Shown: piece after piece, positions 1-64,000 of the stretch | How the letters are laid out: every line of letters begins with the position of its first letter | Position numbering within the stretch: position 1 is the stretch's first letter | Source of the DNA: Muricea muricata | Taxonomy: Eukaryota; Cnidaria; Anthozoa; Malacalcyonacea; Plexauridae | Direction of reading: 5' to 3' | Length of the DNA: 64,000 bases | Assembly: GCA_963855995.1 (NCBI GenBank) | Contig: OY979728.1 | Coordinates: forward strand, 8,387,504 to 8,451,503 | Made by a program: the position numbers and the translations under genes | The notes under the pieces: generated by a model | What the model was told of the DNA's origin: nothing | Seen by the model: the letters and a program-made list of their open reading frames with translations, nothing else | Database searches by the model: none

Positions 1-2693
1 GCGCCACAGAAACCATTCCTTCAGGAATGTGGATTGGGCCGTACGAGGGAAAGAGAGTATCAGTTGAAGAGATTCAAAATATGTTAGATACACGATATGT
101 TTGGGAGGTAAGTGCATGATTTATTGTTAAGGTAATAATCTATCGCTGAAGCTAGAAAACATATACCGGTCAAAATCATCTGCATCATACCTCAGACGCT
201 CTGCATGGTTTAGATACATGATTACATACATATTATTCAATCCACTCCCTATTGAAGCTATTCAATCACGGCTTACAATTTCTATATACACGATTTCAAA
301 CATTGCACATTATATTACATGCAGTGTATTCATTTAAGAGGCAAGAAAATCGGAGTACTGCTTCAACACATCAAATGCGAGAAATGTCTTACATGATTAA
401 TGCACGCATCAAATTTTTTTTAGGTTTTTCAGTGGTGAAAGGCACAACGCGATAACTGTTTGCGCCATCCGTCACGCTTCTCATAGACCACAATTGACCC
501 TTCCCTCATAAATATAGATGTGCTTCTGTTGGGCATAGGTCACAAGGTCGCTAACAGAGGCGCCCATGAAAAGTCTCTTTCAAAACGCCGCTTAGGTACA
601 AAGATTCATATACATGCTGAAAGTAATATCGCTTTACATTGCAGATCTACAAGAATAGAGTGGTTGATCACGCCATTGATGGCATGGATCAAAATCCAGA
701 ATCACCCTCGTCTTGGATGAAATACATTCGATGTGCGAGGAGCAAAACTGAACAAAATGCAGTCGCATTTCAGTTTGGAGCTGATATCTACTTTCAAACG
801 TATAAAACAATAAATCCGGGCGAGGAAATCTTGGTTTGGTATGCTGATTACTACGAGCAATATCATGGCATTCCTGTTGGAGTGAGGAAGATCAAGAAGA
901 CTAAGGAATCCTCACAAACAGGTAAATGGGAAGCAATTTTCTTTTCAGTGTAAACGAGTAACGAAGTAAACTTTTTTACTTAAGTATTGCTTCACTTTAA
1001 AAAAATTTAAAGAGAAATCATTGGTACGCAAACTGGTGAAAATGTGCTTGGCTCAGCCAGGATATGACTCAGGGCTGCATGTTACCTCTGGTTTACTACC
1101 ACCCAAATAAGCGTTCTATGAAATTCTGTTTCACTTTCTTCACATAAATGCATTTTCTCGTTACTTTTCTTTTACTAGGTAAAATTTTCAAGCAATACTT
1201 CTACTTTCAAGTAACTGATATTGAGGCGATATTGCTTTACTTGAGTACTTTGCTGAACACTGTCTTTGCCCAGTGGCCAGTGAAACCAGGGATGGAAAAA
1301 GTTGTTGGAGCACTATAAATACAGTCTCTATAACGCTTAATTTTCGTTGGGCTTCGAGCTTAAGCTTTTTTAAACTGTTTTCTACGGGGGTTTTTTATTG
1401 TAAGCTTTTCCAACTTTTCTTGCAGTCGAATAGCTGTTGGTTCTTGTTTCATTGTTTATGAGACATATTGCAAAAAAGTAAAGTCAAATGTATATGTTAA
1501 TACGATAATTTTATCCTTAGAGAAGGCAAACTTGAAAAGCATATCAATTATACAATGCCTTTCATTAAGTTTATTGTCTCTCTTTTTTGTCCAATCTTCC
1601 TCCCGAGGGCAGAACTATGCCGAGTATTTGTCAAAGCCCTAAGTGAAGCACATGATTAAAGGCACTTTATATTTTGTGTATTTGTGATTACGCGCGCGGT
1701 GAAGTGATGTTTACTAGATGATCTGAAAACACGGAAAAGTACTGGCACTAGTTGTCAAATAGAAATCCATTTCTCGAGCCAAATTATCAAATTTCTCATT
1801 AACTATAATTTACTTCGGTTCCAAATTCCTGGTAGACCTATAATTTACTTTACTAAACACAATTACCAAGTTTCAACAAGTTTCATATAGGAAAATGAAA
1901 GATATGAATGAACAAAAACATCAAAATGGCTTTCTATTTGATAGTTAGTTCCAGGCTTTTTACTCACGGTCAGATCAGCTGGTAATTGCGAAGTAATCAG
2001 TCTCACTGTGTTGTTTCAGCCACCACGACCACAGACATCTTAGAAAAAGCAGAACGTAATATCAAACAACTAAGTTCAAACAAAATATCACTGGAAAATC
2101 CACGACTGATAAAACATCAAGCTCGTTACCAAACAGCTCATCCTTCATCGCTCAGTTTAACAGATCACGGTAGCAGCTCAAACCTCCCTCTTACCTCAAC
2201 TCAGCACGCTCTTCTCCCCAGTACCCCACCTCAACCATGTCCTAATAAACCTGAAAGTCCGCCTACTTTATCTCGAATGTCGAAAAAAAAACAAAGGGCC
2301 ATTTCCAATGTCGATGTTGAAAAACCTCAAAGCTCGCAAGACATTCAAAACCTTCTTGCTTTACAGACACTCAAAACGCGCTTCTGGAAGTGTGAACACT
2401 GTTTGTCAAAGTTCCCTCAGAAATGGGCATTGCAGGTCCATCATTGTTCATGCGTCGTGGCAAAGCCTTACTTGTGCAGTAATTGTGGGAGGGCTTACGT
2501 GAACAAAGACGACATACAAACGCATGCGTCAGAATGTGGCGGCGGCAGACAATATAAATGTGGTTACTGCAGGCGCAGTTTTCTCAACGTTACTACTTTA
2601 GGTAAGCATGTAAAAATACATTTACGGAAAGGTGCCGCTGGCGCACTAAAGAGGAAAACAATGGCACCAGCGTACCGCAGGATTGTACAGTAA
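1..2693 (+). CDS. PRDM-A: PR/SET-domain zinc-finger protein, 5' truncated by window, divergent finger array
   Basis: Partial gene. Three exons are visible: 1-107 (end of the first PR/SET half, donor gtaagt), 645-921 (second PR/SET half) and 2020-2693 (linker and zinc fingers, stop at 2691-2693). Intron phases are 0 and then 1, as in the neighbouring paralogs. PR/SET landmarks are IGPYEGKRV in exon 1, then SSWMKYIRCARS, EQNAVAFQ and EEILVWYADYYEQ. PRDM proteins are nuclear regulators that bind DNA through zinc fingers; some methylate histones. The zinc-finger exon starts with a Ser/Pro-rich linker, followed by a C2HC finger (C-x2-C-x12-H-x-C), a second finger ending H-x3-C and one C2H2 finger. 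The fourth finger present in the paralogs is missing and the protein ends in a basic tail. The PR domain has an insertion of a few residues (DQNPESP) before SSWMKY. Family membership is secure; the human orthologue cannot be named. Introns 108-644 and 922-2019 hold nothing I recognise. Confidence 0.87.
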
Positions 2694-11126: not shown

Positions 11127-11188
11127 TGTAATTATATTTTTGCCAAGAGCAGTCAATTCATGATCATGATTATTTTCTTGTCTAACAG

Positions 11189-13903
11189 GACATCATCCCC
11201 CACACACCTACTCTTCTAAGCTCCCCACCTAAATTGCGACAAGGCAGAATGACCCTGACACACTATACCTTACCTCCTCCTTATGATTTCACATTTGAAG
11301 AGGTCGCCTTCAGCCTGTACGGAAAATCTGTTGTTCAACCCATCGACACAGAACGTATAAAACGAAAGAGACACATGATTTACCACAACTGCGATGGTAA
11401 ACGAAAACCTGGTTACCTTGGAAGTAGTACGTAGATTATGTGGAAACATCACTTTTTTAATTTGCTGAAGATTACGATTGGTTGACCTAGTTCTTTATAG
11501 TTTATTCACATCTGTTACACCGCAAAAAATGAACAACCCTGTTGAGGGTTCATTAAAACAGCATTGTTCAATGTTGTGCTGTCCACATTGTTGATTGCTC
11601 AATGGTGTCAACAATATTGCTCAGTATTGTTGAGCCTGAATTACCCCGCAATCAGATCTAACAATGCTGAACAATATTGTTGACAATATTGACCAATGTT
11701 GGCAGCAAACATTGCTCAAGACTGTTTTCATTACCACTGAGCAGGTTGTTTATTTTTCTGTGTACCGGAAATTATGGACGTGAAGAACGCCAGAATACGA
11801 TATGTAATAATACCCAGGAATGAACACTCCAATGTATTTCATAGATGAGAAAGCCGTCAGCAAGCAGACATGGTCTATACCTCAACTCATCCCGCGCCAA
11901 GTAAAGCAATTCTCTCGTGATGAACACTCAGACAACATGGATATATCTCCGTCTAATGCAATCATGTCGTTCCTGCCAGAAGTACAGTTGTGTATGTCCA
12001 GTTTACCCGGGGGAGATTTTGGGGTGTGTTCTCGAAGTGAGATTCCAAAGAACACTGTGATTGGTCCGTACAAAGGACGAAGGGTGAAGTTAGACGAGGT
12101 GAAAATGAGAAATGATCTCAATGGAGCACATCTTTGGGAGGTATAGTAATGGCGCGCGATTTAAGGGGTAAATGTGTCTTAATTTGAGTGGAAATCACAC
12201 ACATGTCGAAATTCAAGCCGAGAACAGTTGAAAAAATTCATCATCAACTATAGATCCTTCGGCTGGAATGAACCCTACGCCTTAATCAAACCTACGACAT
12301 TTTTACATAATTGGTTTACCCTCAAAGTTTTGAAGTGTGAAAGTTTTATCCTTTTAAAGTGTTGATGAGATACAAAGTGTTCCAGGTTGTGAAATCTCAA
12401 AAAATCATCATTACTTAATCCTCTCCTTTAGATCTCCCAAAAGGAGAAAATTGTAGTGAAAATCGTCTGTTTTAACGGGCCTTATGATTAACTGTTATTC
12501 AAGTCTTTCCATGTTTGCAATCTTGGAAGACCCTCAGAGCTGTTTCATTCATTTTCTCCTCACTAGATCTTCAAGTGTGGTAAACTGGACCATTATTTAG
12601 ATGGTTCGGACGAAAATGTTTCTTGTTGGATGAGATTCATTCGCTCAGCCAGAAACAAACAGGAGCAGAATTTATGCGCGATTCAACATGGAGAAAACAT
12701 ATTTTATCGAGCATTGATGGACATTTCAATTGGAACAGAATTGCTGGTTTGGTACGAGGACAAATATGAGGATTATTTTGGCATTCCGATTGTTCTACGT
12801 AATGGTGTTTGGTCATCGTCACATCCAGGTATGAACTGTTGAAAATCTCGTGCACTTTTGAAACCAAGCATCAACCGTATGGATGAATCATATTGCAAAC
12901 TCTTCTGTCTTGGTATCAATAGTTTACGTTTAAGGGCCTTAATCAGCTGTGCTTCATGAGTGCTGCATGGTTTCTCTTACAACAGTTACGATAAAGTTCT
13001 GAAAATGTAGCAAAATAAAAAAATAGAGCAATTTTATTCACCATTCTGAAAACTGCTGTTTCAAAATATCACTATTCACTGTGATGTCAAAATATGATAT
13101 TTGCGTACTATTCAATTTGAAATATTTCAAGAAACAATCAAGTTAATAAAATATTACAAAATAAATCAACAACTCATTTTACGTTATCTTTACACTGAGA
13201 CCAAAAAACGTTGGGCTGGAACTGTTGCATAAGCATATTTTAAGTGGCTTGTACAGATGTATGAATGCAACATATCTTAAATGATCGTTTTAATGTTTCA
13301 CCGTTAGAACCGAAAACTTCATCACATCCTACACATCAGCTCCTTCGGCGCGAGCCATTCACACCTGCTATGTTAAAGACAATGGAGAGAACGCATCTTT
13401 GGATTGACGAGAGACTGGACATGAATTCTGGCGAAGACGATGACACCGAAGAAGTCAAATTAAAACGACATGACAGCTGTGACGACACTAGCTCGTTTCC
13501 GGGCTCTCATAATTCTGACGGCGAGATACAGTGTACGACGCCTGAAGCCGACACGCCGTCCAGTTTGTGGAGATGTAGCCAGTGCCAGCAGTCCTTCAAC
13601 CAGCGGTCAGCGTTACGAATACACATTTGCCCAACACAGGCAAACAGACCATTCGACTGTGGACATTGCTCGCGCTCTTTCGCCGATGCGAACGACTTAC
13701 GAAACCATGTCGGAACACACACAAACGACCGCTTGTTCAAATGTGGATACTGCGGGCGCAGGTTTGCGGGAGCAACGACGCTGACCAATCATATTCGTAC
13801 ACATACTGGTGAAAAACCGTTCTCTTGTGAAAAGTGCGGGAGAAATTTTTCGCAGGCGTCACAGCTCAACAGGCATCACAAAATTGGTGCCGATTGTGTC
13901 TAA
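11189..13903 (+). CDS. PRDM-B: PR/SET-domain protein with four zinc fingers, first exon not located
   Basis: Four exons join in frame: 11189-11426, 11818-12140, 12567-12828 and 13308-13903 (472 codons plus stop), with phases 1, 0, 1. The first visible exon starts in phase 0, as the matching PRDM-C exon does, so a short ATG exon should lie upstream; I could not find it. It carries the motif [19 protein letters not shown] shared with C and D. The PR/SET domain spans two exons: [20 protein letters not shown], and [15 protein letters not shown] with [17 protein letters not shown]. The last exon has an acidic linker and four fingers: C2HC (RCSQC...HIC), two C2H2, then a final C2-H-C finger (CEKC...RHHKIGADC). 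Linkers are TGEKP-like between fingers 3 and 4. The acceptor of the second listed exon could instead be at 11845; 11818 was chosen because it matches the PRDM-C junction. Likely a nuclear sequence-specific regulator. Confidence 0.88.
11532..11750. mobile_element. MITE-like inverted repeat in PRDM-B intron
   Basis: Imperfect inverted repeat between two PRDM-B exons. The left end (aacaaccctgttgaggg, then attaaaacag) is mirrored by the right end (ctgttttcattaccactgag, then caggttgtt). The interior is filled with short complementary words built on caatattgttgac. It is non-coding. Confidence 0.6.
12173..12251 (+). repeat. Dispersed repeat, pair of 52412-52500
   Basis: About 80 bp in PRDM-B intron (from gtgtctt to catcaactata) match a stretch at 52412-52500 with few differences, including an unbroken shared word atgtcgaaattcaagccg. 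The distant copy lies 260 bp downstream of a tRNA-like A-box sequence, so both may be parts of one SINE family. Confidence 0.65.
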
Positions 13904-20700: not shown

Positions 20701-23661
20701 ATGTGAAGGAACTTGCTGTAATACACGTTCTGTTTGAATTTTTTTGCCCACTTTCTACGTCACAGTTTCCATATTGAATCATCAGAAAGTGGACTATAAT
20801 GTTGATTTTTTTAAGAGACGATTTAAAAAAATGGTATGATTATGTTTGTCCGTAAACTGTATATCATATTAGTATTTAAAGAATTTTGTTCATTCAGAAC
20901 AGAGATAACTGATATGTGGACAAAAAAAATCAAACTGAAATATCTCGTCCACAAAGCGGGTGATGGCTCTTAAAAAAAACACGTTTCGTTTACATTTTGA
21001 ACTTCTGTATCTGTAAAATATTATTTACTAACTCAATATCTGGCAATATTCGTGTTTGCTTTGCTCATAATAAATTTAAAATTTGAGTTTCGATTGAGAA
21101 ATAGTTCGAAAGATGCGAAATCTTGACAATGTTTACATCTGTGGGTCCCAGTTTGTTATGAGCATATCGATGCGCACAAGGGACTGTAAACTACCTTTAA
21201 TCTTTACACGTTCAAAGATAAAGTGCGCAATCAAAATACTATACTGTAGCTGAACGCATCTTACACTGTCTGCATAGTTTGAATATAAACATAATTTACG
21301 AATCACAATCGAGAAGACGTTGGGCAATGTTTATGTGCGCCTCTGTTATAAGCAGAACCGAGGAACAGAACGGACTTTACAGCATCTTTAAACTACGCCA
21401 TAGTTTCCCTTTTCACATAAAAGAAATAACAATTATGTTTCATTTATTTCTTTAGGAAAACGACTTCGAAACGCAAAGTTCAAACTCGTTCAGTCAGCTT
21501 GGTGCGAAAGCAATCAAGTCAATTTGTTCAATTTCCACTTCAATAAATTCATGTGAAAGCTACAATTTCAGCAGCGAAGACTTGAATAAATATCTTTATG
21601 GACAGAAGAAGGTGAAAGCGATTGATATAGAGAGAATATTAAGGAAGAGAAAACTGCTAGAAAGCGAAAACCTATCATATAAGCGATCCAGTAAGTACCC
21701 AATACTGTATTGCAATGCCGTATTGAGAATGCGATTTCGTTTTGTAGGATCGCCCACTCATGAAACAAAGAGATCATTATCATAAAGATGCATCAATGAG
21801 CAGTCACCATGACCTTGTTCATAACTGACATTGGCTCTTCTGTTCACTGTAGGAATACTGAGCTCGGACGACAACGATGAGTTGGACGACATTGAAATGA
21901 CTTACTCCATAATGTCTTTTCCGAACGATGTTCAGCTATGTCGCTCCAGTATTCCTGGTCACGAGCTTGGCGTTTGTTCCAAAGAATTCATGCCCGCAGG
22001 CACGTGGATTGGGCCGTATGAAGGCAAAAGGGTTCCGAAAGCAATGCTACAACGAGAAACAATCGCTCCTGGCTTCTCTTGGGAGGTAGGGTCAGTCAGG
22101 AAGAGTAAGACGAGAACGTCACTTCGACATAGGTTAAAAAACCGTTGATAGGGTGTTAGAAATGAAGAATTTCAAATGGCTTTATTCGGGTAGACACAGT
22201 TGAGTTAAGAGCTTAATAACAGGGTTTGAAAAGTTCAAAAATAGTAAAATTCAAGGACGTTACAAGAGCTTTCAAGTTTATATATCAGCCAACTCAAGGA
22301 CTAAAAAGATCAAATATTTCCCTTACAGGGACTTTAATAAATTTGAAAAAGACTTAAATCATGAACCACCGCAATTTAATTTTTATTGTCAAACAATGTG
22401 TCCAGAAACTAAGGCAAGATGATCGAATCCAAGGACTTTCAAGCACTTCTTTTTTAAACTTATTTCTGTAACTTATTTCTTCGCTCATTTTTGTTAGATT
22501 TACAAGGATGGCAAGCTTGATCACTTTCTTGATGGCTCAGACGACAACTCGTGCAGCTGGATGCGCTATATAAGATGCGCGCGCAACCGCTTTGAACAAA
22601 ACATGTACGTGGTGCAGTATGGTCCAAACATCTACTTCCGATCGTTCAAAGACATCAGTCCAGGCGAAGAGTTACTGGTGTGGTACGAAAGCCAATACGA
22701 GCAATATTTTGGTATCCCAATGTTTATCAAACTGTCCAGTTTTGGAAACAAACCAACGGCTGTTAATCAAGGTAAGCATAGTAGTTAATGACTTGGATCT
22801 TACTATCGAATAGAAATCCATTTTACTGTTTTTTAATCGCTTATATCTTTTATATTCCGGAAATTATACGTCTACCAGGAATTTGGAAAAACAGTGAATT
22901 GAATTTCTAGTCATATCTCATTTCACCTTCGTAGAGGGGGGCCCATGGGTATAAACTAAACTTTTTAACGAAGAACTTCGGTAAGTTGGTAACGCTAACG
23001 AGTTTTCTGGTAGTAAAGCAGATAACAAATTCTGTTTTTCTCATTTCTAGTGTCAGGCGTCCAACAAAGCATCACGGGAAAACACCCAGATAATGTTCGA
23101 CAAAGAAGTTCGCCCGCCTATCTGACCAAACACAATGGCCTCACACTGTCACGTGAATTGCCACCGGAAGTGAGTACAACATTTACGTCAAGTGTTCACT
23201 ACAGCGACTGGGGAAGACAAGTGTTCTCAGAAAGCAGTTCATCTCCACCCTCGACTTCACCCGCCGCCTCTCCGACTGACGTCCACTCACCGACGAACGT
23301 CGACGAAGACAAAGAGATTGGAGTCTGGAAATGTGGTCAATGTCAACAGCGTTTTACACAACGTTCTGCGCTAAGACTTCATGTATGCCCAAGTCAAGCA
23401 AACAACCCATTCCAATGTGGTCACTGCAGCCTATCATTTGCTGACCCAACCAAACTGCGGGCTCATGTGGTAACTCACAATAACGAGCGGCCGTTCAAGT
23501 GTGGTTTCTGCTCGCGCACGTTTGCCGGGGCAACGACGCTGAACAACCACGTGCGCACACACACGGGACAGAAGCCGTTCACGTGTGAAAAGTGTGGCAA
23601 GAGTTTCTCCCAGGCCTCTCAAATGAGCCGACATCAACGACTTGCTGAAGACTGCCAGTGA
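17702..23661 (+). CDS. PRDM-C: complete PR/SET-domain protein with four zinc fingers (471 aa)
   Basis: Five exons join in frame: 17702-17764, 21456-21690, 21853-22085, 22498-22771 and 23051-23661, with GT-AG borders and phases 0, 1, 0, 1. The ATG at 17702 opens a 21-codon exon (starts [10 protein letters not shown]) ending at a gtgagt donor. Residues about 66-84 carry the conserved [19 protein letters not shown]. The PR/SET domain is about residues 120-258, with [27 protein letters not shown] and [19 protein letters not shown] Ser/Pro-rich linker precedes four fingers: C2HC at 363-381, C2H2 at 391-411 and 419-439, and C2-H-C at 447-470. The TGQKP linker between fingers 3 and 4 suggests real DNA binding. 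PRDM domains lack the classical SET catalytic motif, so methyltransferase activity cannot be assumed. A polyadenylation signal AATAAA lies at 23701-23706, 40 bp past the stop. The first exon is the least certain part. Confidence 0.9.
19707..20668. mobile_element. MITE (outer element) with TTAA-flanked termini, in PRDM-C intron 1
   Basis: Terminal inverted repeats aggcaaatggcaac (left) and gttgccatttccct (right) are each flanked by TTAA. The internal arms (ttgaaagagactccaaaaca on the left, its complement on the right) are also inverted. A related copy lies at 36810-37302 in PRDM-D intron 1, which lacks the central 450 bp. No transposase is present. TTAA flanks would suit a piggyBac-type duplication, but the second copy has ATAA at its right end, so this is not settled. 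Confidence 0.75.
20056..20508. mobile_element. MITE (inner element) nested in the 19707-20668 MITE
   Basis: Long terminal inverted repeats beginning ccatttatacgagcgaaaat and continuing with aagccgcggcttaaata are mirrored at 20445-20503. The related outer element at 36810-37302 has no such insert at the matching place, which defines the insertion. TTA precedes the left end and follows the right end. GGG-type termini with a 3-bp TWA-like duplication would suit PIF/Harbinger; this is inference. Confidence 0.75.
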
Positions 23662-28905: not shown

Positions 28906-29385
28906 TGCTTTACAGCACAGACAATCAAAAGTATAGCCTGGAAACGCGAGCAAAAGCGCTAATGCTGCCGACGCGACACCCGTGATACGACCTGACACGC
29001 TTTACGTTGTAACCCTGTAACTTCACCTTAAATATATTTCTCAAATCATTATAGTAATTCATGAAGTTTGAAAATCGGGGGAAGAAATTACATAAATTAG
29101 GCCAGATTTCTCCTTGATACTCTTGCAGAATACTGGTTCGTTTGAGAAGCACGTGCAAACACTCATGAGGAGGATTTCCTGCGCTTTCCAAACACCATAA
29201 AGTTCTTTAAAAAATACTCGGCTTCACCTCGTATTTTCAACTGCTCTTGGTGTTTAAAAATCGAAGGAAGTCCTCCTACTGCTGCTCGTGTTTAAACTAT
29301 CATTTCAGGACTTTGTATTTACATATTTTAAACAAGAACAGCAATGTCTATGAAACTGTCGACTTTTAAACCTTTTCGGAGAGCA
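28906..29385. mobile_element. Half copy of the 36238-36745 MITE family, split by another insertion
   Basis: The stretch 28912-29035 (cagacaatcaaaagtatagc through ctgtaacttcaccttaaata) and the stretch 29305-29385 (ttcaggactttgtatttaca through gacttttaaacc) match consecutive pieces of the arm of the element at 36238-36745. They are separated by about 270 bp of foreign sequence. The second arm is missing. It lies just downstream of the PRDM-D stop. Confidence 0.65.
29036..29304. repeat. Dispersed repeat inserted in 28906-29385 (copy 1)
   Basis: Matches 63630-63930 in the same orientation, with gaggaagaaattacat-like, ttcgttaaaaaaatactc-like and tgtattttcaactcctct-like words in the same order. 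It has no protein coding capacity and no clear terminal inverted repeat. Type unknown. Confidence 0.6.
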
Positions 29386-29497: not shown

Positions 29498-32400
29498 TCA
29501 ATCATTTCCAAGCAATCCTTCACTGGAATATTTTGACTCTACCTTGCTTGATGCGTGCCCGGCACACTCCCCCGGCACACGCGTGTGTCTCGCGAGTTGA
29601 GTGCCAATCGCGAATGTCTTCCCGCAGCTTTTGCAGACAAATGGACGTTCGCCAGTATGCGTTCTAACGTGATTATTTAGCGTGGTAGCACCCGCGAACG
29701 ACCTTCCGCAAAACCCGCATTTAAATGGTCGCTCGCTTGAGTGCACTACGACGTGATTCCGAAGCTCCGAAGGTTGAGCGAAGCTTAACGAACAATGTCC
29801 GCACTGAAAAGGCTTGTACGGCTCCTTAGGACAGACGTGCATTTGAAGCTGAATTCTTTGGGTAAAAACCTTTTGACATTGTCTGCATTTAAAAGGTAGA
29901 CTAACGTCATTTAGCACAGGAGCTTTAAAACCGACCTGTTGATGTCTACCTGGAGTATGAAGATGAGGATCACTACAATTGACTGGATCCTGAAAGTCGC
30001 TTGTCTTAAATTGTTCTTGTAAATTACTTGTTTTTACAGGAGGTGGCTCACATGAAACATATTTCTCCTCCATTTCGACCCTTTTTTGAGGCTCTAAGCC
30101 ATGCACATATGTTTCTTTTTCGATTCGTTTCTTTATTTGGTCAGCTAGAACTTGTTGAACTGTCGATGGCTTGGATTCAGCCAAAGTTTGCTTGCCTGCC
30201 AAGGTAACAGGTTTAGAAGAACGAGGTAGAGCGGCATTTTCCGTTTGAAAAAAAGATGTTTTTTGTACTTCTGTGGAGAGGTACTCGGGGTAACCTTGGG
30301 ATATCGTTGTGGGTCGAGGATGCTCAGAGGTAGAGCTAGCAAGGTCAATAGCCTGTGAAGTAGAAACAGCGAAATGGATTGTTGGTCCTTTCTCAATGAA
30401 GCTGCAAGCACGTTCTACAAAAAATAAAATGATTGGAAAAAGAATGCACTACTCGCCAAAAACTATGTAAAGGTGGCTTACCTTCAATTTTTGCTTGGTC
30501 ACTTTCCTTTAAACTCAAAGGTATTTCCAAATGTTTCTGATAGCTATCGCTATACCAGACTAGCAATTCTTCACCTAAAGCAATATCACGGAAAGAACGA
30601 TAGTATATATTTTGACCACATTGATACGCCGCCATGTTTTGTTCGTTTCTATTCCTTGCGCAACGTATAAACCTCATCCAGCTGGAAGTATTTTCATCGC
30701 TGCCGTCGACAAAATGCGAAAACTCCCCGTCAATGTAAATCTGAAATGGAAGCACGAACCATCCAGTCAATTCATTAAACAGGACACACACTGATAGCAG
30801 TATAAGTAGTTTATATCATACTAAATGTATAATAATTCATTAATAATAACAATAATAATAATTCATTAATACAGTTGAACCCCTATTAAGCGGACACCAT
30901 TCGGACCTCGCCAAGGTGTCCGCTTAAGAGGGGTGTCCGCCTAAAAGGGGTCTCGCAAAATCACAACAGGGGGTAATTTTTCGTATGTTATTTATTTACC
31001 TATGTTAATAATATATAATGTATAAAAGTCTACCAAAATATCTACGTTCAGAAACTTTTGTAGTTAAAATCAGCATTCAAAAAGCCTAGGAACGTTTGCG
31101 CTCGAGTCTTTCGCGAAAGCACATAGTACAAAATAAAACATAACAAAGCTAAGAATAATCATTTATAAAGGCCATATTTCACTTCAATCGTGAACGGCGA
31201 AACGTAGCGTATTCGATATATGGAGTCCATATCATTAACTGCCCGAGTGTTCACGAAACAATGAAATGCGCTACGTTTCGTTACCTTACTGTCCGCTTAA
31301 AAGGGGTTGATTTGTTCATTGGGACCTCCAGTGAGGTGTCCGCTTCCGCTAAATAGGGGTGTCCGCCAAATAAAGGTTTCCTTACTAGTATTTAATTAAA
31401 GAAACGTTTGGGACCTGAATTTAGTGTCCGCTTAAAAGGGGTGTCCGCTTAAAAGGGGTGTCCGCTATTAGGGGTTCAACTGTAATAATAATTACTATTA
31501 TTCATTAATAATAATAATAATTCATTAATATATAATAATTCACTAATAATAATAATTATTATTCATTGCGATTCATTCGATTAAATACTTGCTATTAGTA
31601 TAGAATTGCTTAAAAATGCCCGACACTGTCCCTTTAACAGTCTGCCATTCCGGGACACTGAATGAACAAACGGCTTTGTAGTCACTCTTCAAAATATTTC
31701 TAATATGATGTGTTTCAAAACTAGACACCTTGTAACAAGTCTGTCAGCAACCTGCCCACAAGTTGTCTTAAGTTGTCAACATGTTTGGAACAAGCTGTTA
31801 ACAACTTGTAACACCATTGATGGGATAATCAGACTTGTGACAAGATTGCCCTAACAACCTGTTGCAGCAATGATATAACAATGTTGTTACAGCTTTGTGT
31901 TGTCCACCTTGCTACATTCTGATAATCCCACATGCTTGTTCAAGTGTTAACAGCTTGTTTCAAACTTTTTCCAACCACTTGGTACAATCTTGTCAACACA
32001 GACTTGTTCAGGGCAACATGATATTGCAGTCAGGAAATTACCTGAAACTGACAAGAGTTCCTACCTCCCACAAATAGTCCTGATTTTCATCGACATCATT
32101 CCGCTGGTGATTAGTTCGTCGTCCTTCGTAAGGGCCAATCCACGTTCCTGAGGGAAGATGCCGTCGCGCGCAGACTCCGTAAATATACCCTGGTATACTT
32201 GATGTACACAACTGTGCCTCATCTGGAAATGACATCATTGCATATGTTGCATGCACACTGCTGCCTTTCCCATTATCCTCTGCGTGCACAAGCTGATGCA
32301 ATGACTGCAATGGAGCATGGGTAGAACATTTTTCTTCGGTTTGACCCAAACATACGTTACAGGCTAAAAGTGAGAGGAAAATTGCATGTTGACCTCAGGA

Positions 32401-38400: not shown

Positions 38401-40077
38401 ATGACTGGATCCTTGTAGACATGCAGACAGTAGCTACAGTGAAACTTTCCGCTAACAGGACTCTCAAACCGCTCCTTGTCGTAACCGTGAGCGGCCATGA
38501 TGTTACTACTGTGAAACTGTCCCTACATTCGTCTCCACATTCGTCCCCATATTCATTACGAGATTAAATAAACAGATTATGACCACCTGCGGTATGCTTA
38601 CTATTTCCAATCATTCGAACAGCGTTTACCTTTAGATCCTTAGCATACCAAATATCTTAAATTTTCATCTCTGAAGCAATAATAATTACAGCTCTTGCCA
38701 CTTATACTTTGGAGGTTAAAATCAATAAAATTAACATTTCGATTCTATGTGGTTCGACCAAATCTATGTATTTATTGACTCCATGTATTTAAAAATCGAT
38801 GGATTTACTGACTACATTTCACGCTAGTAAAAACAGCATCCTTTCCTGCATGATAATAACACCGAGAAGGATAATAATTTGTGCGGTCGGCGATTATTTT
38901 TTGTAAACGTTGTTTCGATTTGCCGGTCTCGTGCTAATCGCGCATGCGCTAATTCGCGGCAGGCAAAATCCGGTACAAGTGTAGTAAACAAGTACCCCAA
39001 GGACGTATCAAATTACACATGATGACTTAGCGAAATGAAAGTCAAACAAGATTACAAAAAAAGCTACAGCCTGGTTCACATTTGTCGTCAAAATCAGGGA
39101 TTCTTTCTTCTCATGTATGTGAATGAATGTGATATTAGATTGCTTTTGCACTGGTATACGGAATTCACTCGATCACATCGGCCAGAAGAAGTCGTCCCCG
39201 ATTCCTACGGCAAGAGTGAACCACCTCAAACGGCAAAATAAGCAGCTAGCGTAGTATGCATGCTAGAGAAAATACACGATAAAGCTAAAATGCGTTCATT
39301 GCCTGCAAAGTATGATATTTCAGCTGTGGCTCTTAGATGAAATATCGCCTTCGGCATCGGCAAATAGTTCATTTCGGAGTCACAGCTGACAAATCATGCA
39401 ATTTTGCTCAACTCCGCCCAATAATTGCGTATACTACGCGAAAGGTATCGGCTCTTTTACCACCTGAAACCGTAGAGTGAAATTCTGCTCTGACCCCCGT
39501 ATACTGTGCCCTAACTTCGCGACGAAGGGCCTTCTCTCTCGAAACGTCACATTTTACTTTATCGTTCCAGGTTGCTAGTGATTTAAAGACTGCACTACTT
39601 ACACTAGCGTTAGTTTCGAACTTATTGAATACTGTAGTATACAATACGTTTTCACGCAAAAGCATATGATCTCACATTACCTGAACGATATAAACATAAC
39701 TGGACGTGTCGAGCGAAGGTCCTCCGTCGAGGTGTTAGTTAGTTAGTAGGTACTGAAAGATCCTATAATCATTTTTGCATGCTTTTTTGTTATACTGCCG
39801 ACACTCAGGCAACGTTCCAAATATACTTTTCCACAATACCTTTAGAGAGAGTAGCCGTCTCATGGTTTTTCTTTTCAAATACAACCTCGTCAGTAGTTCT
39901 TTGTTTCTGCACGTTTTGCTTATCAAGAGCACGCACAGCATTTTTGCCATATAAATAGTGTTCAAGCATCGCACGGCTGGTAGTTTTCCCCGTCGCATCC
40001 AAATTGTCCTGCTGCATATCTTCCAAATTTCCAACACGTCTTCTCACGCTCTCGCCAGATCTTGCCTCGTTAGACAT
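29498..40077 (-). CDS. PRDM-D: PR/SET-domain protein with four zinc fingers (570 aa) and a 7.5 kb first intron
   Basis: Four exons read on the minus strand: 40077-39840, 32363-32065, 30740-30482 and 30414-29498. Phases 1, 0, 1 match the paralogs. The ATG at 40077 is preceded by an in-frame stop. The first exon holds [18 protein letters not shown], the counterpart of the L-Y-G motif of B and C. The PR/SET domain has [26 protein letters not shown] and [12 protein letters not shown]. Fingers are a C2HC at residues 442-460, C2H2 at 470-490 and 498-518, and a last C2-H-C at 526-549, with a TGERP linker between 3 and 4. The first intron contains two RING-finger genes on the same strand and two MITEs. 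That the 39840 exon joins 32363 rests on motif homology and phase; a separate broken paralog is the alternative. A dibasic, Lys/Glu-rich linker precedes the fingers. Confidence 0.82.
30872..31482. mobile_element. Pogo/mariner-like MITE with TA target duplication
   Basis: 611 bp in PRDM-D intron with termini cagttgaacccctattaag and its near-perfect complement (ctattaggggttcaactg), flanked on both sides by TA. The word ggtgtccgctt recurs in both orientations near both ends. There is no transposase. The CAG terminus and TA duplication fit the Tc1/mariner/pogo group. (TAA)n tracts border it at 30829-30870 and 31483-31565. Confidence 0.8.
31725..32015. repeat. Palindrome-rich caacttgtt repeat in PRDM-D intron
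   Basis: About 290 bp dense in short complementary words (acaagttgtc, caacttgtaac, acaagcttg-like), with the word gataatc repeated near 31825 and 31920. It resembles 54955-55215 and 56026-56165. It looks like a degenerate MITE family. Confidence 0.5.
32413..32643. mobile_element. MITE of the 9275 family (copy 2)
   Basis: Left end aaccgattgttcaaatgtcg with ggttagcttaaccc inside; right end ctttgaacaaccggtccc with gctaacc inside. Same family as 9275-9511. Inside PRDM-D intron 1. A run of 14 C bases at 32845-32858 lies downstream. Confidence 0.65.
33030..34733 (-). CDS. RING finger / TRAF-type zinc finger / coiled coil / kelch protein (567 aa)
   Basis: A single uninterrupted exon starting at ATG 34733. 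Residues 24-62 form a C3HC4 RING finger (C24, C27, C37, H42, C45, C48, C59, C62), the E2-binding module of E3 ubiquitin ligases. Residues about 89-151 are Cys/His-rich, with spacing like TRAF/SIAH-type zinc fingers ([24 protein letters not shown]). Residues 152-260 are predicted coiled coil. From about 275 to the C-terminus there are kelch-like repeats with GG doublets ([39 protein letters not shown]), which would form a substrate-binding propeller. It is probably a cytosolic ubiquitin ligase; the substrate is unknown. It lies inside PRDM-D intron 1 on the same strand. The first 150 residues are very similar to the gene at 37716-38498, so the two are recent paralogs. Lack of introns suggests retrocopy origin. 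Confidence 0.9.
   Translation of the reverse strand: MADYSELGYAVERFEAAVSRRFHCSICLNVFKDPVMCHRNQHSFCRGCITRHLTNFQTCPVCKDPLTVNTLSDAPRILTDYLSELRISCDYCHRGCKQYIKLDDLDRHLNDCGFAPVVCSNEGCLQEVNKTELVYHETMVCERRVAKCHECEHLTRKVGELKRDLTVVNSKLDEMQPLLNTTFTCLETLMEVSGKLSAFEKNLSAQMDNRLDPFATKLNRLEAMEHQLQEHNQQMMTRFVAMSEPLAKLSRLETDQASKVSLNQAVISQKSNASSSVVIAGGSNDGKTLQSVESFSLLTGLWSEEKAMEANVCEASSALYHDQMLVSGGRRSSGVSDEIMRRNIRIKSGQWARLAVPLRTKLRGHCCVVYKDSLYCIGGCLENGVVSHEIRVVQLVPPYASRFLAWLPDGMVHHSARLFDDRIVIVGRVQSSWSYRSRLCNVFIYDISKNRLKQLAPVVSAAVQEMATVRWGDNIIIIGGIDVHHKPLKTVVMYNIRTQFTDVLPDMKDARRGCVAAVLGNSILAIGGATHGLTSLNTVECFDFTRFTWKELSPMNEARYLATAVTF
34734..36237. other. PRDM-D intron 1 stretch: probable promoter of the RING-kelch gene, no other gene
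   Basis: The first few hundred bases upstream of ATG 34733 (higher coordinates) should hold the RING-kelch promoter. I see no clear core element. A 21-base word (ctggccagtcgattgcatttt-like) occurs twice near 35130 and 35203. The remainder is AT-rich, without domains or transposon ends. Confidence 0.35.
36238..36745. mobile_element. MITE with ~180 bp terminal inverted repeats
   Basis: Left arm begins agcatagacaatc, then tggactggaaacgcaagcta, and runs on to aactatcgacttttaaaac. The right arm is its near complement from 36565 to 36745. Arms of about 180 bp enclose a spacer of about 130 bp, giving a large potential hairpin. There is no coding capacity; the minus-strand frame at 36523-36756 is arm sequence. 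A half copy is at 28906-29385. Confidence 0.78.
36810..37302. mobile_element. MITE, related to outer element 19707-20668, without its insert
   Basis: Shares tttgaaagagtctccaaaac at the left, ggggtcacgcaatttt and gacgtcaccaa inside, and ttgttgccatttccct at the right end. The left terminus is degraded. It lacks the nested inner element, so it serves as the empty-site reference. Confidence 0.72.
37716..38498 (-). CDS. RING finger / TRAF-type zinc-finger protein without kelch domain (260 aa)
   Basis: A single exon, ATG at 38498. RING residues are C21, C24, C34, H39, C42, C45, C56 and C59. The Cys/His-rich TRAF-like part spans about residues 84-150 ([23 protein letters not shown]), followed by a short coiled coil to about 230. 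The C-terminus is a DSRSD repeat ending at the stop. In DNA this is a 15-base unit (tcagaacgcgaatcg) present three times at 37732-37776. Compared with the 567-aa paralog 3 kb away, the whole kelch domain is missing. No kelch remnant is visible downstream. It is a probable E3 ubiquitin ligase that may act alone or interfere with the longer paralog through the coiled coil (inference). A possible AATAAA on the minus strand lies at 37397-37402. Confidence 0.87.
   Translation of the reverse strand: MAAHGYDKERFESPVSGKFHCSYCLHVYKDPVMCRRNQHSFCRGCITRHLQNQRTCPACKDELTLETLTEPPRILTECLSELKIRCEFYERGCHEIVTLQGLDRHVELCGYVPATCSNEGCDLEVNKRDLIHHEFVECEHRKLRCHNCERLSKDVDELKRKVNDMEKQLDTNSRNLFAAVEIKLDSFLKNFDMKMREQQKNMDCTLKAMKRSNNTVADNLKEIKNVVESFPKKSRVETHDDDSRSDDSRSDDSRSDSSTG
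38499..39839. other. PRDM-D intron 1, 5' part: no supported gene
   Basis: Should include the promoter of the 260-aa RING gene near 38500-38650. Two short frames (plus 39035-39241, minus 39408-39665) have no known domain. No repeat recognised. Confidence 0.35.
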
Positions 40078-43660: not shown

Positions 43661-43805
43661 AGAACCATCCTCAGAGATATGAAAAACTAGATTCATATTA
43701 ATCTGACATTGCAGAGAACAACGAAAAATTCGTTGTCTCGAGCGGGATTTGAACTCGCATCTTCGGGTTTCTAGACCGCCGCTCTACCAATTGAGCTATC
43801 GAGCC
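43661..43805 (-). mobile_element. tRNA-derived SINE (copy 1) with tRNA-like head
   Basis: Read on the minus strand, 43805-43735 is a 71-base tRNA-like sequence. It has a 7-bp acceptor stem with one mismatch, a D arm with A box TAGCTCAATTGG, and a T arm with B-box-like GAGTTCAAATCCC. The anticodon stem has two unpaired positions, so it is not a working tRNA gene. It runs straight into the conserved core (acaacgaatttttcgttgtt, then agattaatatgaatctagtt) and ends near 43661 with ggatggttctg. This is RNA polymerase III promoter plus body, as in SINEs. Confidence 0.78.
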
Positions 43806-44003
43806 AACTGGGATTGGTAGCGAGTCTTATCCAATTTAAGTGCACGAAATATTTTCGTAACGACTTAACGCTTGTCTTTGAGGACGCGCAGTGTTTCAAT
43901 TCTATTTCAGAACCATCCTCAGAGATATCAAAAACTAGATTCATATTAATCTGACACTGCAGAGAACAACGAAAAATTCGTTGTCTGGAGCGGGATTCGA
44001 TAG
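43806..44003 (-). mobile_element. tRNA-derived SINE (copy 2), truncated head, with 3' extension
   Basis: On the minus strand it starts inside the tRNA-like head (tcgaatcccgctc), passes through the same core (43986-43909), then continues into about 100 bp ending near 43806. That extension (cgagtcttatcc and aaatattttcgtaacgactt on the plus strand) is similar to 54008-54110. The head is interrupted by the MITE at 44014. Confidence 0.7.
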
Positions 44004-48877: not shown

Positions 48878-49253
48878 CCATTCCCCAATTAGACAAACTT
48901 TTATTTTTAGCACAGTTGGAAAGAGCTTCCTAAATTTAGTGAAATTGTGAAGTTTGGTTATAAAATATTGTAAAATGTCGAAAATACAGTAACGTAAAGT
49001 TTGCGAATTTTGTATACTTTTGTATTACGCGGGAAAAAGCGTTTCCAAATTTCCACATAGTGGTAATTAACGCTTTTCCGTGCGGCGTAATACAAAAGTA
49101 CAAAAAAATCGTAAACTTTACAGGACTATATTTTCCACATTTTACAACATTTTATTGCAACCAAACGTGACAACTGTATGAAATTTAGGATGCTCTTTCC
49201 AGCTGTGCCGATTGATTTTCCGAATTCAAACGCTGGTCTAACAGGGGAATGGT
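48878..49253. mobile_element. MITE with accattcccc termini
   Basis: 376 bp with ends accattccccaattagac and gtctaacaggggaatggt. The inside is also inverted (gtacttttgtattacg-like words, agaaagcg-type centre), so almost the whole element can fold. Non-coding. Confidence 0.78.
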
Positions 49254-49674: not shown

Positions 49675-50021
49675 GTACCATAGTTAATAGAGTAGATGGT
49701 TTGGAAACTTATTAAAATAACAATATACACATCATCTATGTTTGTCAACGTTTGTTCAAAAATATGGTTCTTCATCGTCACGTGTGTATTGTGTTTTCGC
49801 CAAATCCACCAATAGGAATTCTTGAATTACCCTATTGTTCAAGTGGCGGATGGCTAAATTTCCTAAAACGTAGCTATTGGTTAGTTAGGTGAAAATACAA
49901 TACGCACGTGACGACGAAGGACCTCATTCCTGCATAAACCAGAACAAAAACATAGATAATGACTTATATTGTAGTTCTAATGAGTTTCCAAACCATCTAG
50001 CTCTATTAACTATGATGGTAC
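49675..50021. mobile_element. 347-bp MITE with gtaccatagttaatagag termini
   Basis: Ends gtaccatagttaatagag with atggtttggaaac inside, mirrored by gtttccaaaccat and ctctattaactatgatggtac-type sequence at the right. The interior is also largely inverted around 49850. Confidence 0.78.
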
Positions 50022-50107
50022 AAATGTAATTTACTTATTGTTTCTTAAAGAATTATTGACCCTGCTCAGTGATGTCATGGATTTTTGCTTTGTTGAGAAA
50101 CATCCAA

Positions 50108-53531: not shown

Positions 53532-53649
<118 letters not shown>

Positions 53650-55215: not shown

Positions 55216-55753
55216 TGGTGTTTCAGCCTGCGTGCATACATGGGCCATTTTTGCTCGCGATTTTTTGGATCGACAACACACTGTTGTTGCTACACCGGAG
55301 ACTAATACTTATGACGAAGAGAGCAATGGCCTCTAAATTCTGCCTGCATCGTTGATTTCATCCTCACATCTAATTGACTAGTTTGCTGTTTGCTGTGTCG
55401 TGTCTTTTCATTTGAAAAGGCCACGCGAAAGATTATTTTCTCGAAATATCAAACTTGCTGAAATTATCACGATAGTCAATGAATCGCAAAATCATACAGA
55501 CGTTGTTTCTTTAAATACCTTTTCAAAGAAGACGCCGACTTACAATTTTTTCCTCCTCCTAGCAAAATGTACAGAAGAACAATTATATATAGAAACCTTA
55601 TTTAGAAACACTTCTGATATTAGTCGGTATCCTTTATATTTCAAGTGCATGGAAAATGCGCAAGCATATTTTAGTAATTGTCGGTGTTGTGTATATCTAG
55701 CATTTCGTTGTGTTGCCGTCTATAGTATATATATACGAATATCATTAAATGAA

Positions 55754-56025
55754 GGTAAATAAATACACTCGTCAATTCTAAACTTAAATTAATGTATACC
55801 TTCAGGTATACGTTAATTTAATATGGTATGATGCAATTTGATATTTGCAACATGCATCAAGCTTGTGGATAAAAAATCTTGAAAATCAAGGTAAATAAAT
55901 ACACTCGTCAATTCTAAACTTAAATTAATGTATACCTTCAGGTATACGTTAATTTAATATGGTATGATGCAATTTGATATTTGCAACATGCATCAAGCTT
56001 GTGGATAAAAAATCTTGAAAATCAA
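55754..56025. repeat. Exact tandem duplication, 2 x 136 bp
   Basis: 55754-55889 and 55890-56025 are identical base for base on reading. Each unit holds a near-perfect hairpin (taaattaatgtatacc, loop ttca, then ggtatacgttaattta). Lack of differences means a very recent duplication or an assembly artefact. Confidence 0.9.
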
Positions 56026-59000
56026 CTTGCATCAATCTTTTTGACAACATACAAGCAGCAGACTTGTTATCATCAAGCCGGAGCATTAAGCCATGCGAAC
56101 ACATCCTGATATCAGCTTGATGCGGACTGCCAAGTGACAAGCTTGCAGCAGACTTGTGTGGTTTTGCAGCCGCAGTGAAAATTACAAACATTATTTACAA
56201 AGAGAAATTTTTAACGCAAATTAGTTCTCCCATCGTTTTACATTATATGAAACCGATTAACGCGTTAATCGAATACATGGCTTAAAAAACTCGCAATCCA
56301 GTGGATAGTGTTACCTGCTGGCTTTCGTAAACGTCATTGTCTTGATTTCTACTGGGATTTTGCCATTCTGATGGATGTGAAGGAGTGAATTGCTTAGAAA
56401 ATGTTAACACGAGAAATCACACCCTCATTATAATTCACTATAAATCCACGTTATTCACATCCGTAAGAAGATTGAAAATGACAGGAAAGTGTTGGCAAGC
56501 CTTGACACAAGACGACGCATGAGATCTAAGAAAGAATAGTTTTTTAATAAGTTTTGTCAAAAGGACAGGGTAACAACAACAGCATGTACCAATGACTGTG
56601 GGACCGTACACCTAGATATGTCGATTTTAGTGGGGGAGAAAAACCTCAAAGCGCAGTAGTCAGTGGAGATCAACTACGGCAACTCGACTAGCATGAAATA
56701 CGTCAGCGGACTCAGTCTCAGTGGTGATTCAAACGCATGTAGTCTCTTATCCGTCAATATTTGGGAAGAAAAGGATAGAAAAACGGCACTTATACGGTCC
56801 AGTGACACTTTAGATCTTTGAATTGAAATGTCATCAAATGTTGAGAAGTGTTTAAGTGGAGATTAGCATGTGTTTGTTATGTTAATAACCTTGCATGTGG
56901 TCTCTGTTCTAACCGCGCAATTTCAAACACGCTGTTGACTGGCACGATACACATTCAACCAATGAAAGCGTCGGTATCATTGCAGTTTTTTCAAATCACG
57001 ACGTCGTGGTGGATGACCCGGAACGATAACAAAAAATTTATCACGGGCGCGTGGGTGGTGGACTGAATATACAAATGCGATGCAAATCAAATTGCCCGCC
57101 AGAACGTGCGTAGCCGTTGAAGAGACACAGCAGAGCAGGCCGGTGTTGGTGAGCAGCTTAACAATCATATGGTTTTAAAAACTACTTTGTGATAAACTTG
57201 ATTGGATTGAAGGGAATATTATTGGTTAAGGAATCTTCTATATCAATTCCGCAATGATTGAGGTACGTACTGAAGTGATAAGGATGAGACTTTACAAGAT
57301 TACTATAGGACTTTGATCAATTTTAATCAGTTTTGATCACGTTTGTTGAAAATTTTGAAGAAATGTAATCGTTGGTTCATGGTTAATGATAATATTAATT
57401 AAATTTCTGCCGCGCGTTTCTACGAAGATTACATATCAAGTTACAACTTCGACTTCCCAGCGTCTACAGCATGGCACGCGAGAACGCGCGGGTTAATAGT
57501 TTGGTAAAAATCCAGGCTTTTTGTTTTCCTGTTTTGATGGTACGAAACGTCATTAGGAACCGTGTTATTTTGTTTAAGCATATTTACTGGCCAACACGGC
57601 GTCTACTGCTGCAACGAGAACGAGCCTTCCTCATCAAATCACGTGCTAGGATTGTATACATCACTGCTTGAACACATGATGAAATACTTAAACACTTTAC
57701 GCAACTCAAAGAGACTGTATCTTGTATAAAATCGTAAACAAGAACGTCGCGAATACCATGTAACTTCCTATTACGCTATAAATAATCAAACGAGCTTAAA
57801 GTAAATAATTATCGTTCGAACTCGGATATTTAACTAGACTCAGGTTGAATACGATGCCAGTATGCCTTCAATTGCTTGCTAATGTGTATTTCGGTGATGT
57901 ATGTATAGTAAATTTGCAACGTTTTCCTTTCTACATAGAGAAGTGTTTCGATTCAAGACAAACCAATTACGCAGTTGGAAATTACAAAGGATTTGCTGGA
58001 GGGTTTCTTGTATGGGAAAAGACCGATCCAGCTGGTCGATGTACAAGGCAGACGAAAAAGGAAATGGGAAGGTGGTGAAGAAGAATCCACGAGAAAGCTT
58101 CAATCTTTGTGTGAGTTTTAGTGAAGTATAGTATCATATACTTTGACAGGTCAATTTTACCATTGGCGTCATCGCAATGTCAACAGTATCTTAATTATAT
58201 TCATAACATGTTTTTACGCGATTTGTCTTACAAACGCTCTGCTCTGCTAATTTGCATCAAACAAAGAAAAACTGATATTTTCGCCCACGTTAATTCATTC
58301 GAAAGAAATTAACAAGTGGAACTTTTTCGCTTCACTGTAATGTTCGGAAACGGCCCTCTATGTTAGGAAATCCAAATAGTTTGACTCAATTTGGCGAACA
58401 GCGACGAAAAAGGATCCTCCTTAGCAAATTCGTCGCGTTGCTTGAGTGATCTTGACTTAAAAGTTCCGATTTTAATGTGTTCAAACCCAATTGGCTTACC
58501 CGTCACAGGTAGACAAGGGGGGTCATTATGAAAATAAGGCATGAGAGTGCAGCACCCAACTGCGCTTTTGAGAGGTTTTTTCGCTAAAATAAATTCAGTT
58601 GCATTGTCATTGTAGACAGATTGTAAATGTTTTTTAAAATGGTTATTCACCTGCTGTCAAAGTGCTTGTATTGGCTTCAGTCTTTCCTCTATTATTCTCG
58701 GGTATCTGATGTGTATACTGTGACCAATGTTTACAAATGCTCTAAGTAGTTGGGCGAAAATAGCGGAAATATTTATCTTAAACTTGGAAACGCTACGACG
58801 CGTCTTGAGATATGAATACAACCCAATAACTTCTACCCTCGAGGCAATTCTTCTATCTTAATCTTATCTGCAACACACATCGAAAAACATATATACACAT
58901 TTAACCAGGATCACAGTAATGTTTAATTCTTTTACACAGTACTGTTTGATGAATTTTTGGTAGAATTTTCACGCCGTTTTTGTCTATACTGATGCATGTA

Positions 59001-61796: not shown

Positions 61797-61858
61797 CCAA
61801 CTCATGTTAACACTCCCAACTCATGTTACGTTAGCACTCCCAATTTATGTTACGTCGA
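61797..61858. repeat. Short tandem repeat (cactcccaactcatgttac units)
   Basis: Three imperfect units of about 19-24 bases. Confidence 0.6.
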
Positions 61859-62229: not shown

Positions 62230-62416
62230 TAAAGACCCTGTCACACGGTGGAATTTTTCTTGCAACTTGAAACGCAATTCTACTTTTAAGAGATGTAAAT
62301 TAGTTACAAATGTTTGGTATGTTAAAAATATATTAGAAAACTGTGATGGGAACTTGTATTTTCCAATTTCACAAGTGCAAGTTGGACGAAAAATTGCACC
62401 GTGTGACAGAGCCTTA
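62230..62416. mobile_element. 187-bp MITE just upstream of the PRDM-E exon
   Basis: Ends taaagaccctgtcacacggt and accgtgtgacagagcctta, with aatttttc/caacttg words mirrored inside. Non-coding. Confidence 0.75.
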
Positions 62417-62523
62417 AGATGGAAGGATTGACATTTACGTAACCCTTTTTTTAAAGATTGAAAGTTTATGTTACTTTATTAGTGAATGCTTCTTCCAATA
62501 TTTCTTCCTTATTTCAACCGCAG

Positions 62524-62774
62524 GGTGTGAAGAATGCTGTAAATATATTCAAGGCGAATGTACCATCCACCATTCATCACAGCCCAAGCTGACGTATGCT
62601 GTTGGCTCATTTCCGCCGGAAGTACGTCTGTGTACTTCCAGTATTCCAGAATACACGTACGGCGCATGCGCTGCCAAACCTATGCCACGCGGGACATGGA
62701 TTGGCCCGTACGAAGGAAGGCGGGTGAACCTCAACCAGATGCCAAAAGATAAAGATAACACTTTTGGTTGGGAG
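62524..62774 (+). CDS. PRDM-E: single PR/SET exon, gene continues beyond the window
   Basis: The exon follows a tttcaaccgcag acceptor and ends at a gtaaga donor after Trp-Glu, exactly as in the paralogs (enters in phase 1, leaves in phase 0). It encodes 83 complete codons: a Cys-rich start (CEECCKYIQGEC), VRLCTSSIPEYTYGACA, then [12 protein letters not shown] and GWE. This is the first half of a PR/SET domain. The second half is not present in 62775-64000, so the intron is longer than 1.2 kb or the gene is broken. The upstream L-Y-G exon was not found. The Cys-rich lead-in is shared in part with PRDM-D (CNVCLG...EEKC), which suggests E and D are the closest pair. Confidence 0.8.
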
Positions 62775-64000
62775 GTAAGAAGAACTAATACTGAATTAGT
62801 TTTTGTGCAAACATGCGTTTAACCCCTCCCCCCCCCATTTTTTAAAAGGGACAGTTTTAGGCAATTGCAAGAAATGAAGATATAGGTTCATTCACCAGCT
62901 GAAAAAAACTCATGTTTCTCAACATTGTTACTAAGAAAAATGTTCCTCAAGATCAAAAATCCCGAGATGCAACTGTTCTCTATGTAAAAAACCATGGTTC
63001 AGTTCTGATTGTACGACAGGACCTTCTGAAAAACACTTATATTAGTGATGCTGGTTAATTGTCATTGATTAGTTGATACGTGTCAAAAATGCATTTGTTG
63101 ACGATTATTAAAATTCAAAACGTACAAATATTGACGAAGCTTGATTCCAGTTGCATGAAACGTTTTGACAACAAATATTCGTTGTTCTGACCCATGTTGA
63201 TAATTAATTGTTCGCACGCAACTGCAAAGTGAAGCCTGGTTATCACTGGCTACACAAGCATATAGGCAAGAAAGCAAAGCATGATTGTTACTCTGGTGTT
63301 TTAAGACATAACAGAAATAACTTTTCTTGGAATTTAAGTGGGGCGTGTTTACCTAACCTCAAAGAGACTTCATTACTTACGCTCAATTCTAAGAGGTGAA
63401 AAAATGAAAAATTTACACTACGATTTTTTATTCAACCGTTCATTTCTAGCCCTAAATAATGTACAAAAATTGTGTGATTCAGTATATAGCAAAAATACTG
63501 ATCTTTCTTAATATGAAAAATTAACTGCGTCCACGCCTTAATTTACTCGCAATAACGTGTTGAGATTGCATGGATTCAGTTGGCCCTGCAATCTGTACGT
63601 CTATGTGCCTTGAATTTCTAAAACCGATTCTCAAACTCATTTATAATTCATGAAGCAAGTACAAAGAAAATCAATACAGTGGGGAACGTTTGGAAATCGG
63701 AGGAAGAAATTACATAAAATAAGCCAACTTTCTCTATGAATTTCTCGCAAAATACTGGTCCGTTTGACATGTACGTTTAAATACTCGTAAGGAGGAATTC
63801 CTCCGATTTCAAAACACCTCAAAGTTCGTTAAAAAAATACTCCGGCTTCTCCTTGTATTTTCAACTCCTCTCGGTGTTTGTAAAATAGAGGAAGTCTTCA
63901 GGACTACTCGTATTTGAACTATTACGTAATGACACACACACATATTTAAGAATATAAAACATTTTTCCGTGTTGATGTACAGTTATATCAACGCGAGTGG
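62775..64000. other. Probable PRDM-E intron with a dispersed repeat
   Basis: No second PR/SET exon is seen on either strand. A C-run lies at 62828-62838. From 63630 to 63930 lies the second copy of the repeat described at 29036-29304. Confidence 0.5.
63630..63930. repeat. Dispersed repeat (copy 2 of 29036-29304)
   Basis: Same word order as the copy near PRDM-D: tataattcatgaag, cggaggaagaaattacat, tactcgtaaggaggaattcc-like and ttgtattttcaactcctctc. The minus-strand frame at 63637-63822 shares residues with the frame across the first copy, but both are probably incidental. Confidence 0.6.

Follow-up and report, generated by a model that had tools for sequence, protein, structure and literature searches.

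Gene content and exon plan of the cluster

The window, by which we mean the whole 64-kb stretch of Muricea muricata DNA analysed here, contains five PR/SET genes, denoted A to E, in the order and orientation A+, B+, C+, D-, E+ (Table 1). An earlier note on this DNA had placed parts of PR/SET domains at these five sites and had described D as the one inverted gene; our exon boundaries agree with the former, and D indeed lies on the minus strand, with the others on the plus strand. With respect to the layout of the PRDM family, a PR/SET domain followed by C2H2 fingers, Pfam recognized the PR domain above cut-off in A-E and zinc fingers above cut-off in A-D, those of E being beyond the window. 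The model PRDM2_PR (PF21549, cut-off 27 bits) was run on the frames holding PR exons and scored above 27 on PR exon 2 of A, B, C and D, while of the two PR exon 1 frames scanned, that of E lay above the cut-off (28.5 bits) and that of B below it (22.9 bits). When 13 pieces (PR domains, two finger arrays and two N-terminal exons) were used as tblastn queries at a threshold of E 0.05, all matches fell on the five loci, and no further PRDM locus was found in the 64 kb.

Table 1. Exons of the five PRDM genes in the window. Bit scores are those of PF21549; HMM E-values were obtained with the respective exon left out of the model.
Feature	Position	Strand	Remarks
Gene A, PR exon 1	1..107	+	cut by window start; ends in Trp-Glu, phase 0 donor
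Gene A, PR exon 2	645..921	+	phase 1 donor; 85.1 bits
Gene A, zinc-finger exon	2020..2693	+	to stop; three fingers, fourth absent
Gene B, N-terminal exon	11189..11426	+	LYG motif; phase 1 donor; 5' limit from AG consensus only; HMM E 1.2e-5
Gene B, PR exon 1	11818..12140	+	without pre-SET knuckle
Gene B, PR exon 2	12567..12828	+	92.6 bits
Gene B, zinc-finger exon	13308..13903	+	four fingers
Gene C, N-terminal exon	21456..21690	+	LYG motif; 5' limit from AG consensus only; HMM E 2.9e-7
Gene C, PR exon 1	21853..22085	+	without pre-SET knuckle
Gene C, PR exon 2	22498..22771	+	98.1 bits
Gene C, zinc-finger exon	23051..23661	+	four fingers
Gene D, N-terminal exon	39840..40077	-	start ATG; LYG motif; 7.5 kb upstream of PR exon 1; HMM E 5.5e-4
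Gene D, PR exon 1 with pre-SET C-C-C-H knuckle	32065..32363	-	
Gene D, PR exon 2	30482..30740	-	102.1 bits
Gene D, zinc-finger exon	29498..30414	-	four fingers
Gene E, N-terminal exon	57939..58110	+	LYG motif; 5' limit from AG consensus only; HMM E 0.0099
Gene E, PR exon 1 with pre-SET knuckle	62524..62774	+	no later exon seen before window end

The genes share one exon plan. PR exon 1 ends in TGGGAG/GT in all five, such that the donor follows the same Trp-Glu in phase 0. PR exon 2 has an AG acceptor in the four genes in which it is visible, that of E being beyond the window, and a phase 1 donor in the same four; the finger exons accept phase 1 and end in a stop codon. The split after Trp-Glu and the phase 1 exit before a single zinc-finger exon, both proposed in the earlier note, were thus recovered at five of five donors and in all four visible genes, respectively. 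Introns within the PR domain of A-D span 412-1324 bases, and every intron of the spliced models is GT-AG. For the finger exon of B, the acceptor at 13308 was chosen because an earlier AG at 13257 would give an in-frame stop.

A conserved N-terminal exon, missed earlier, precedes the PR exons in all four genes whose upstream DNA lies in the window (B, C, D and E); the corresponding region of A is outside it, and the count rests on these four. In tblastn searches, a conserved open stretch upstream of the PR exon of C matched DNA upstream of both B (E 2e-4) and E (E 0.038); on the minus strand, a segment lying well upstream of D gave weak matches to the C and B stretches (E 0.031 and 0.048). Aligned, the four exons carry an LYG(K/Q) motif, which is followed by a basic run in B, C and E. 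Their donors are in phase 1 and two bases remain at each acceptor of PR exon 1, which puts the join in frame in four of four; an alternative end of the E exon at 58109 was dropped as it gave the wrong frame. Each exon, when left out of a hidden Markov model built from the other three, was the best untrained match in the window among 1616 open reading frames. The shared plan of the earlier note is real and longer than claimed; a recent origin, which the note implied with the clustering, is not supported.

Are all five genes working copies? A lacks a fourth finger, and its branch, at 2.08, is the longest; of E we see the N-terminal exon and PR exon 1, and the 1226 bases left after these show no PR exon 2, a distance to be set beside the 412-1324 bases of the same intron in A-D. 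Either gene could accordingly be decaying, leaving fewer than five functional ones. However, the visible frame of A is open and varies most at third codon positions, and the exons of E are open too, with matching splice phases; we regard decay of A or E as unlikely, if still a reading to be reckoned with.

Probable affinity of the window proteins to PRDM6

As the PRDM6 reference we used a putative human PRDM6 sequence of 595 residues. It aligned to the window proteins across the LYG motif, the knuckle, the PR domain and the fingers, scoring 295 bits with C, 270 with B, 181 + 158 with D, 144 with A and 52 with E. The reference has Cys at 263 and Arg at 549, in agreement with the published variants p.Cys263Ser and p.Arg549Gln given in an excerpt of PMC7998561.

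The PR domains were placed in an unrooted tree with PDB-derived, presumably mammalian PRDM1, 2, 9, 12, 14 and MECOM and with the human PRDM6 reference, a panel from which PRDM4, 5, 10, 11 and 16 are absent (PRDM8, 13 and 15 enter none of our comparisons). Within this panel A-E formed one clade (SH-aLRT 95.5, UFBoot 87), holding together as the single group that the earlier note had assumed and not dispersing among different ancient subfamilies, and the six PDB-derived domains were split from PRDM6 plus A-E at 88.2/68. Among the same seven domains, that of the PRDM6 reference was the best blastp match for B, C, D and E, while A scored 92.8 bits with PRDM9 and 91.7 bits with PRDM6. Against PDB chains, D was nearest to PRDM12 (101 bits), followed by PRDM1 (93 bits) and by PRDM14 and PRDM9 (91 bits each); the PRDM6 reference was likewise nearest to PRDM12 (121 bits), and there was no PRDM6 chain among its 15 PDB matches. 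An AlphaFold2 prediction for the PR domain of D, run with B, C and A, had a mean pLDDT of 38.9 and was too poor for use.

The fingers of B, C and D are 61%, 64% and 70% identical to those of the PRDM6 reference when aligned in register and 36-45% identical when shifted by one finger, in a test that covered only the fingers of these three genes and of the reference. Outside the zinc, core and linker columns, 30, 33 and 36 of 57 positions are identical in B, C and D, respectively. Between copies, finger identity amounts to 68% for B-C, 55% for B-D and 64% for C-D, which in the fingers puts D closer to human PRDM6 than to B or C. Of all copies, A has diverged most. When A-D were combined in one tree with the PRDM6 reference as root, D was set apart from A, B and C, yet so weakly (68.5/45) that we claim no order of duplication.

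The pre-SET C-C-C-H knuckle is present in D and E and absent from B and C, its position in A falling outside the visible sequence. Searched against the 1616 open reading frames, the knuckle of the PRDM6 reference ranked PR exon 1 of D first (E 0.004) and that of E second (E 1.7). With the N-terminal motif of the PRDM6 reference, the exon of C came first (E 0.0034), while those of D, E and B ranked third, fifth and eleventh at values no better than chance (E 0.98, 2.2 and 7.6); in the reverse direction, the window models reached the PRDM6 reference only at E 0.015-0.83. Judged by E-value, the link of this exon to PRDM6 itself would thus stand for C only.

As far as their sequences tell, the window proteins fit one PRDM subfamily, PRDM6. 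With human and mouse PRDM6 (PRISM) they have in common the LYG motif and the PR domain, in D and E also the knuckle, and in B, C and D four fingers, of which the first is HxC, together with the GTTN residues of finger 3; they differ from it in that five copies are clustered here, in that B and C are without a knuckle, and in that A has three fingers. Within the PR domain, the GP(Y/F) motif has Tyr in A-E and Phe in the PRDM6 reference. Four zinc fingers are also what an excerpt of PMC10077476 ascribes to Prdm6.

Our first guess from the literature had been Prdm14, since an excerpt of PMC10415408 describes four well conserved Prdm14 paralogs in Nematostella, NvPrdm14a-d, likewise PRDM genes multiplied in a cnidarian, and since, at 91 bits with D, PRDM14 is one of the closer PDB matches. 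We dropped this identity on the number of fingers, three or four in the window genes versus six in PRDM14 (excerpt of PMC4463580), and on the PR domains, which in B, C and D score 129-134 bits with the PRDM6 reference but 93-102 bits with PRDM14. Finger sequence, in a comparison that did not include the fingers of PRDM14, follows PRDM6 in B, C and D as well. By finger number and PR-domain score the Nematostella genes belong to another subfamily, and their gene numbers in PMC10415408, which are far apart in the part quoted, suggest that they may be dispersed. We consider a Prdm14-type expansion in the window very improbable.

Age and constraint of the copies

Nei-Gojobori counts were obtained for 16 region comparisons, ten of PR domains and six of fingers, of which those of the fingers of A take in a stretch of poor alignment at the end, where A has no fourth finger. 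The proportion of silent differences, pS, ranged from 0.64 to 0.98 and was at least 0.75 in 14 of the 16, the two lower values belonging to the short comparisons A-E (35 codons) and B-E (55 codons). Replacement differences, with pN of 0.18-0.47, stayed well below pS in both domains, and third codon positions differed most in every one of the 16. These counts, read at the level of codons, say that the copies are old and that amino-acid change was constrained, with which selection at single sites would be compatible. Uncollapsed haplotypes were rejected as a source of the copies because silent sites are saturated.

At the DNA-contacting positions (-1, 2, 3 and 6), finger 3 of the PRDM6 reference reads GTTN, as does that of B, C and D, and A has NTTK; in finger 2, D equals the reference (QSEN), with NDDT in A, DNDN in B and DTKA in C; in finger 1 these residues are different in all four genes. 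In finger 4, compared by eye, B and C share QSQR, D has ITQR and the reference QTQR.

Comparing the window with itself returned a single match between PRDM exons, 131-133 bases of the finger exons of B and C at 77%. It also returned a 214-base match of 81% between 29063-29272, just downstream of D, and 63684-63896, downstream of PR exon 1 of E, which is probably a dispersed repeat and not a footprint of duplication, given that stretches beside it recur at 36.2-36.7 kb.

The earlier note had seen in the cluster a possible sign of selection for diversity and, by implication, of recent origin; the saturated silent sites, the pN of 0.18-0.47 and the identical finger-3 contacts of B, C and D speak against both. 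A lineage-specific array of recent date, its DNA binding under diversifying selection as in PRDM9 or clustered zinc-finger genes, would account for the tandem layout, for the finger 1 and 2 contacts that differ between paralogs and for the link between the D and E flanks, but it is hardly credible given silent saturation, pN well below pS in both domains, a GTTN finger 3 that B, C and D hold in common with the PRDM6 reference, no more shared DNA between PRDM exons than the B/C finger segment, and a flank match that looks like a dispersed repeat. PRDM9 itself shows some likeness to the window proteins: D matches two of three chains, 6nm4 and 4ijd, from the knuckle on (query 3-174, chain 11-173) and the third, 4c1q, from position 38 on, and the GPYEG motif is shared. 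It differs in its fingers, the window arrays being short and finger 3 conserved in B-D. No KRAB/SSXRD region was seen in the exons at hand, which do not extend further upstream of A, B, C and E; the N-terminal exon of C had no Pfam match.

The Trp-Glu intron may be general among PRDM genes, and the shared phase plan is therefore not taken as evidence of recent duplication; the common phases may come from one ancestral PRDM6 gene, in which case they are uninformative on timing. We consider it probable that the window holds an old and still constrained cluster of five PRDM6-subfamily genes that arose by local duplication, with one inversion (D).

Proposed function and neighbouring elements

At the columns equivalent to Tyr 276, 341 and 357 of PRDM9, which we take to be its catalytic tyrosines, B and D carry Tyr throughout, and the second column is Phe in A and C. 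The first column, the only one visible in E, is Tyr in E and in MECOM and Phe in the PRDM6 reference. By these residues B and D are candidates for an active PR domain, and nothing more.

If the genes of this old PRDM6 cluster act as their domains suggest, each would encode a nuclear, DNA-binding chromatin regulator, in which fingers 3 and 4 of B, C and D would read a related DNA sequence, the N-terminal LYG-basic motif may serve docking or nuclear import, and methyltransferase activity would either be recruited by the PR domain or reside in it. D, together with E, would retain the ancestral layout, from which A, B and C may have diverged towards more specialised roles. According to an excerpt of PMC7998561, PRDM6 is nuclear, occurs in vascular smooth muscle, has histone methyltransferase activity and suppresses contractile proteins. 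An excerpt of PMC10077476 presents it as a putative methyltransferase by which the identity and contractility of smooth muscle are promoted, and which may bind DNA via its four fingers. For the cluster, the differentiation of stinging cells (cnidocytes) would be a plausible setting, judging from one sentence on Nematostella prdm6 in the quoted literature. It is a doubtful further step, and one that we put forward with little confidence, to picture an ancient regulatory array that has been together since early cnidarian history, in which a knuckled PRDM6 gene, D, gave rise to neighbours that lost the knuckle and acquired roles of their own in subtypes of stinging cells or neurons.

The PRDM family arose in animals (excerpt of PMC2082429), and the PRDM6 papers we found deal, in the parts quoted, mainly with vertebrate smooth muscle and heart development. 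Among the matches listed, no title or abstract opening reports a PRDM6 cluster in a cnidarian, nor do the quoted passages mention one, a scope that does not extend to the animal Prdm survey of Vervoort et al. 2016 and is no proof of absence from print. Searches for relatives in viral and genome contig collections, in which no animal genomes were found, gave 3, 57 and 79 pattern matches, none of them confirmed by tblastn. A clustered multi-copy PRDM6 set in an early-branching animal would offer a place to study the role of the family before its specialisation in muscle, and would let one ask why some copies dropped the zinc knuckle beside the PR domain. The view of PRDM protein action would stay as it is.

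Besides the PRDM exons, the window contains a number of other elements. A Pfam scan of ten frames of the window returned two RING genes and eight frames without a match. Both RING genes are single-frame, lie on the same strand as D and are enclosed in its proposed first intron of about 7.5 kb; the one at 33030-34757 (-) has Kelch repeats and a TRAF-type finger match below cut-off, that at 37716-38522 (-) is shorter and without Kelch, and they are 44-54% identical to each other. A tRNA-Ser gene with anticodon AGA is located at 43732-43806 (-), and the segment 43657-43749, which partly overlaps it, recurs as a 97% copy at 43905-43997. Simple and tandem repeats comprise a long (AT)n run at 53535-53649 and, at 55747-56025, 2.1 repeats of a 136-base unit at 99%. 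Imperfect palindromes of about 300-540 bases, found at 36237-36744, 48910-49208 and 49679-50014, are probably foldback or terminal-inverted-repeat elements.
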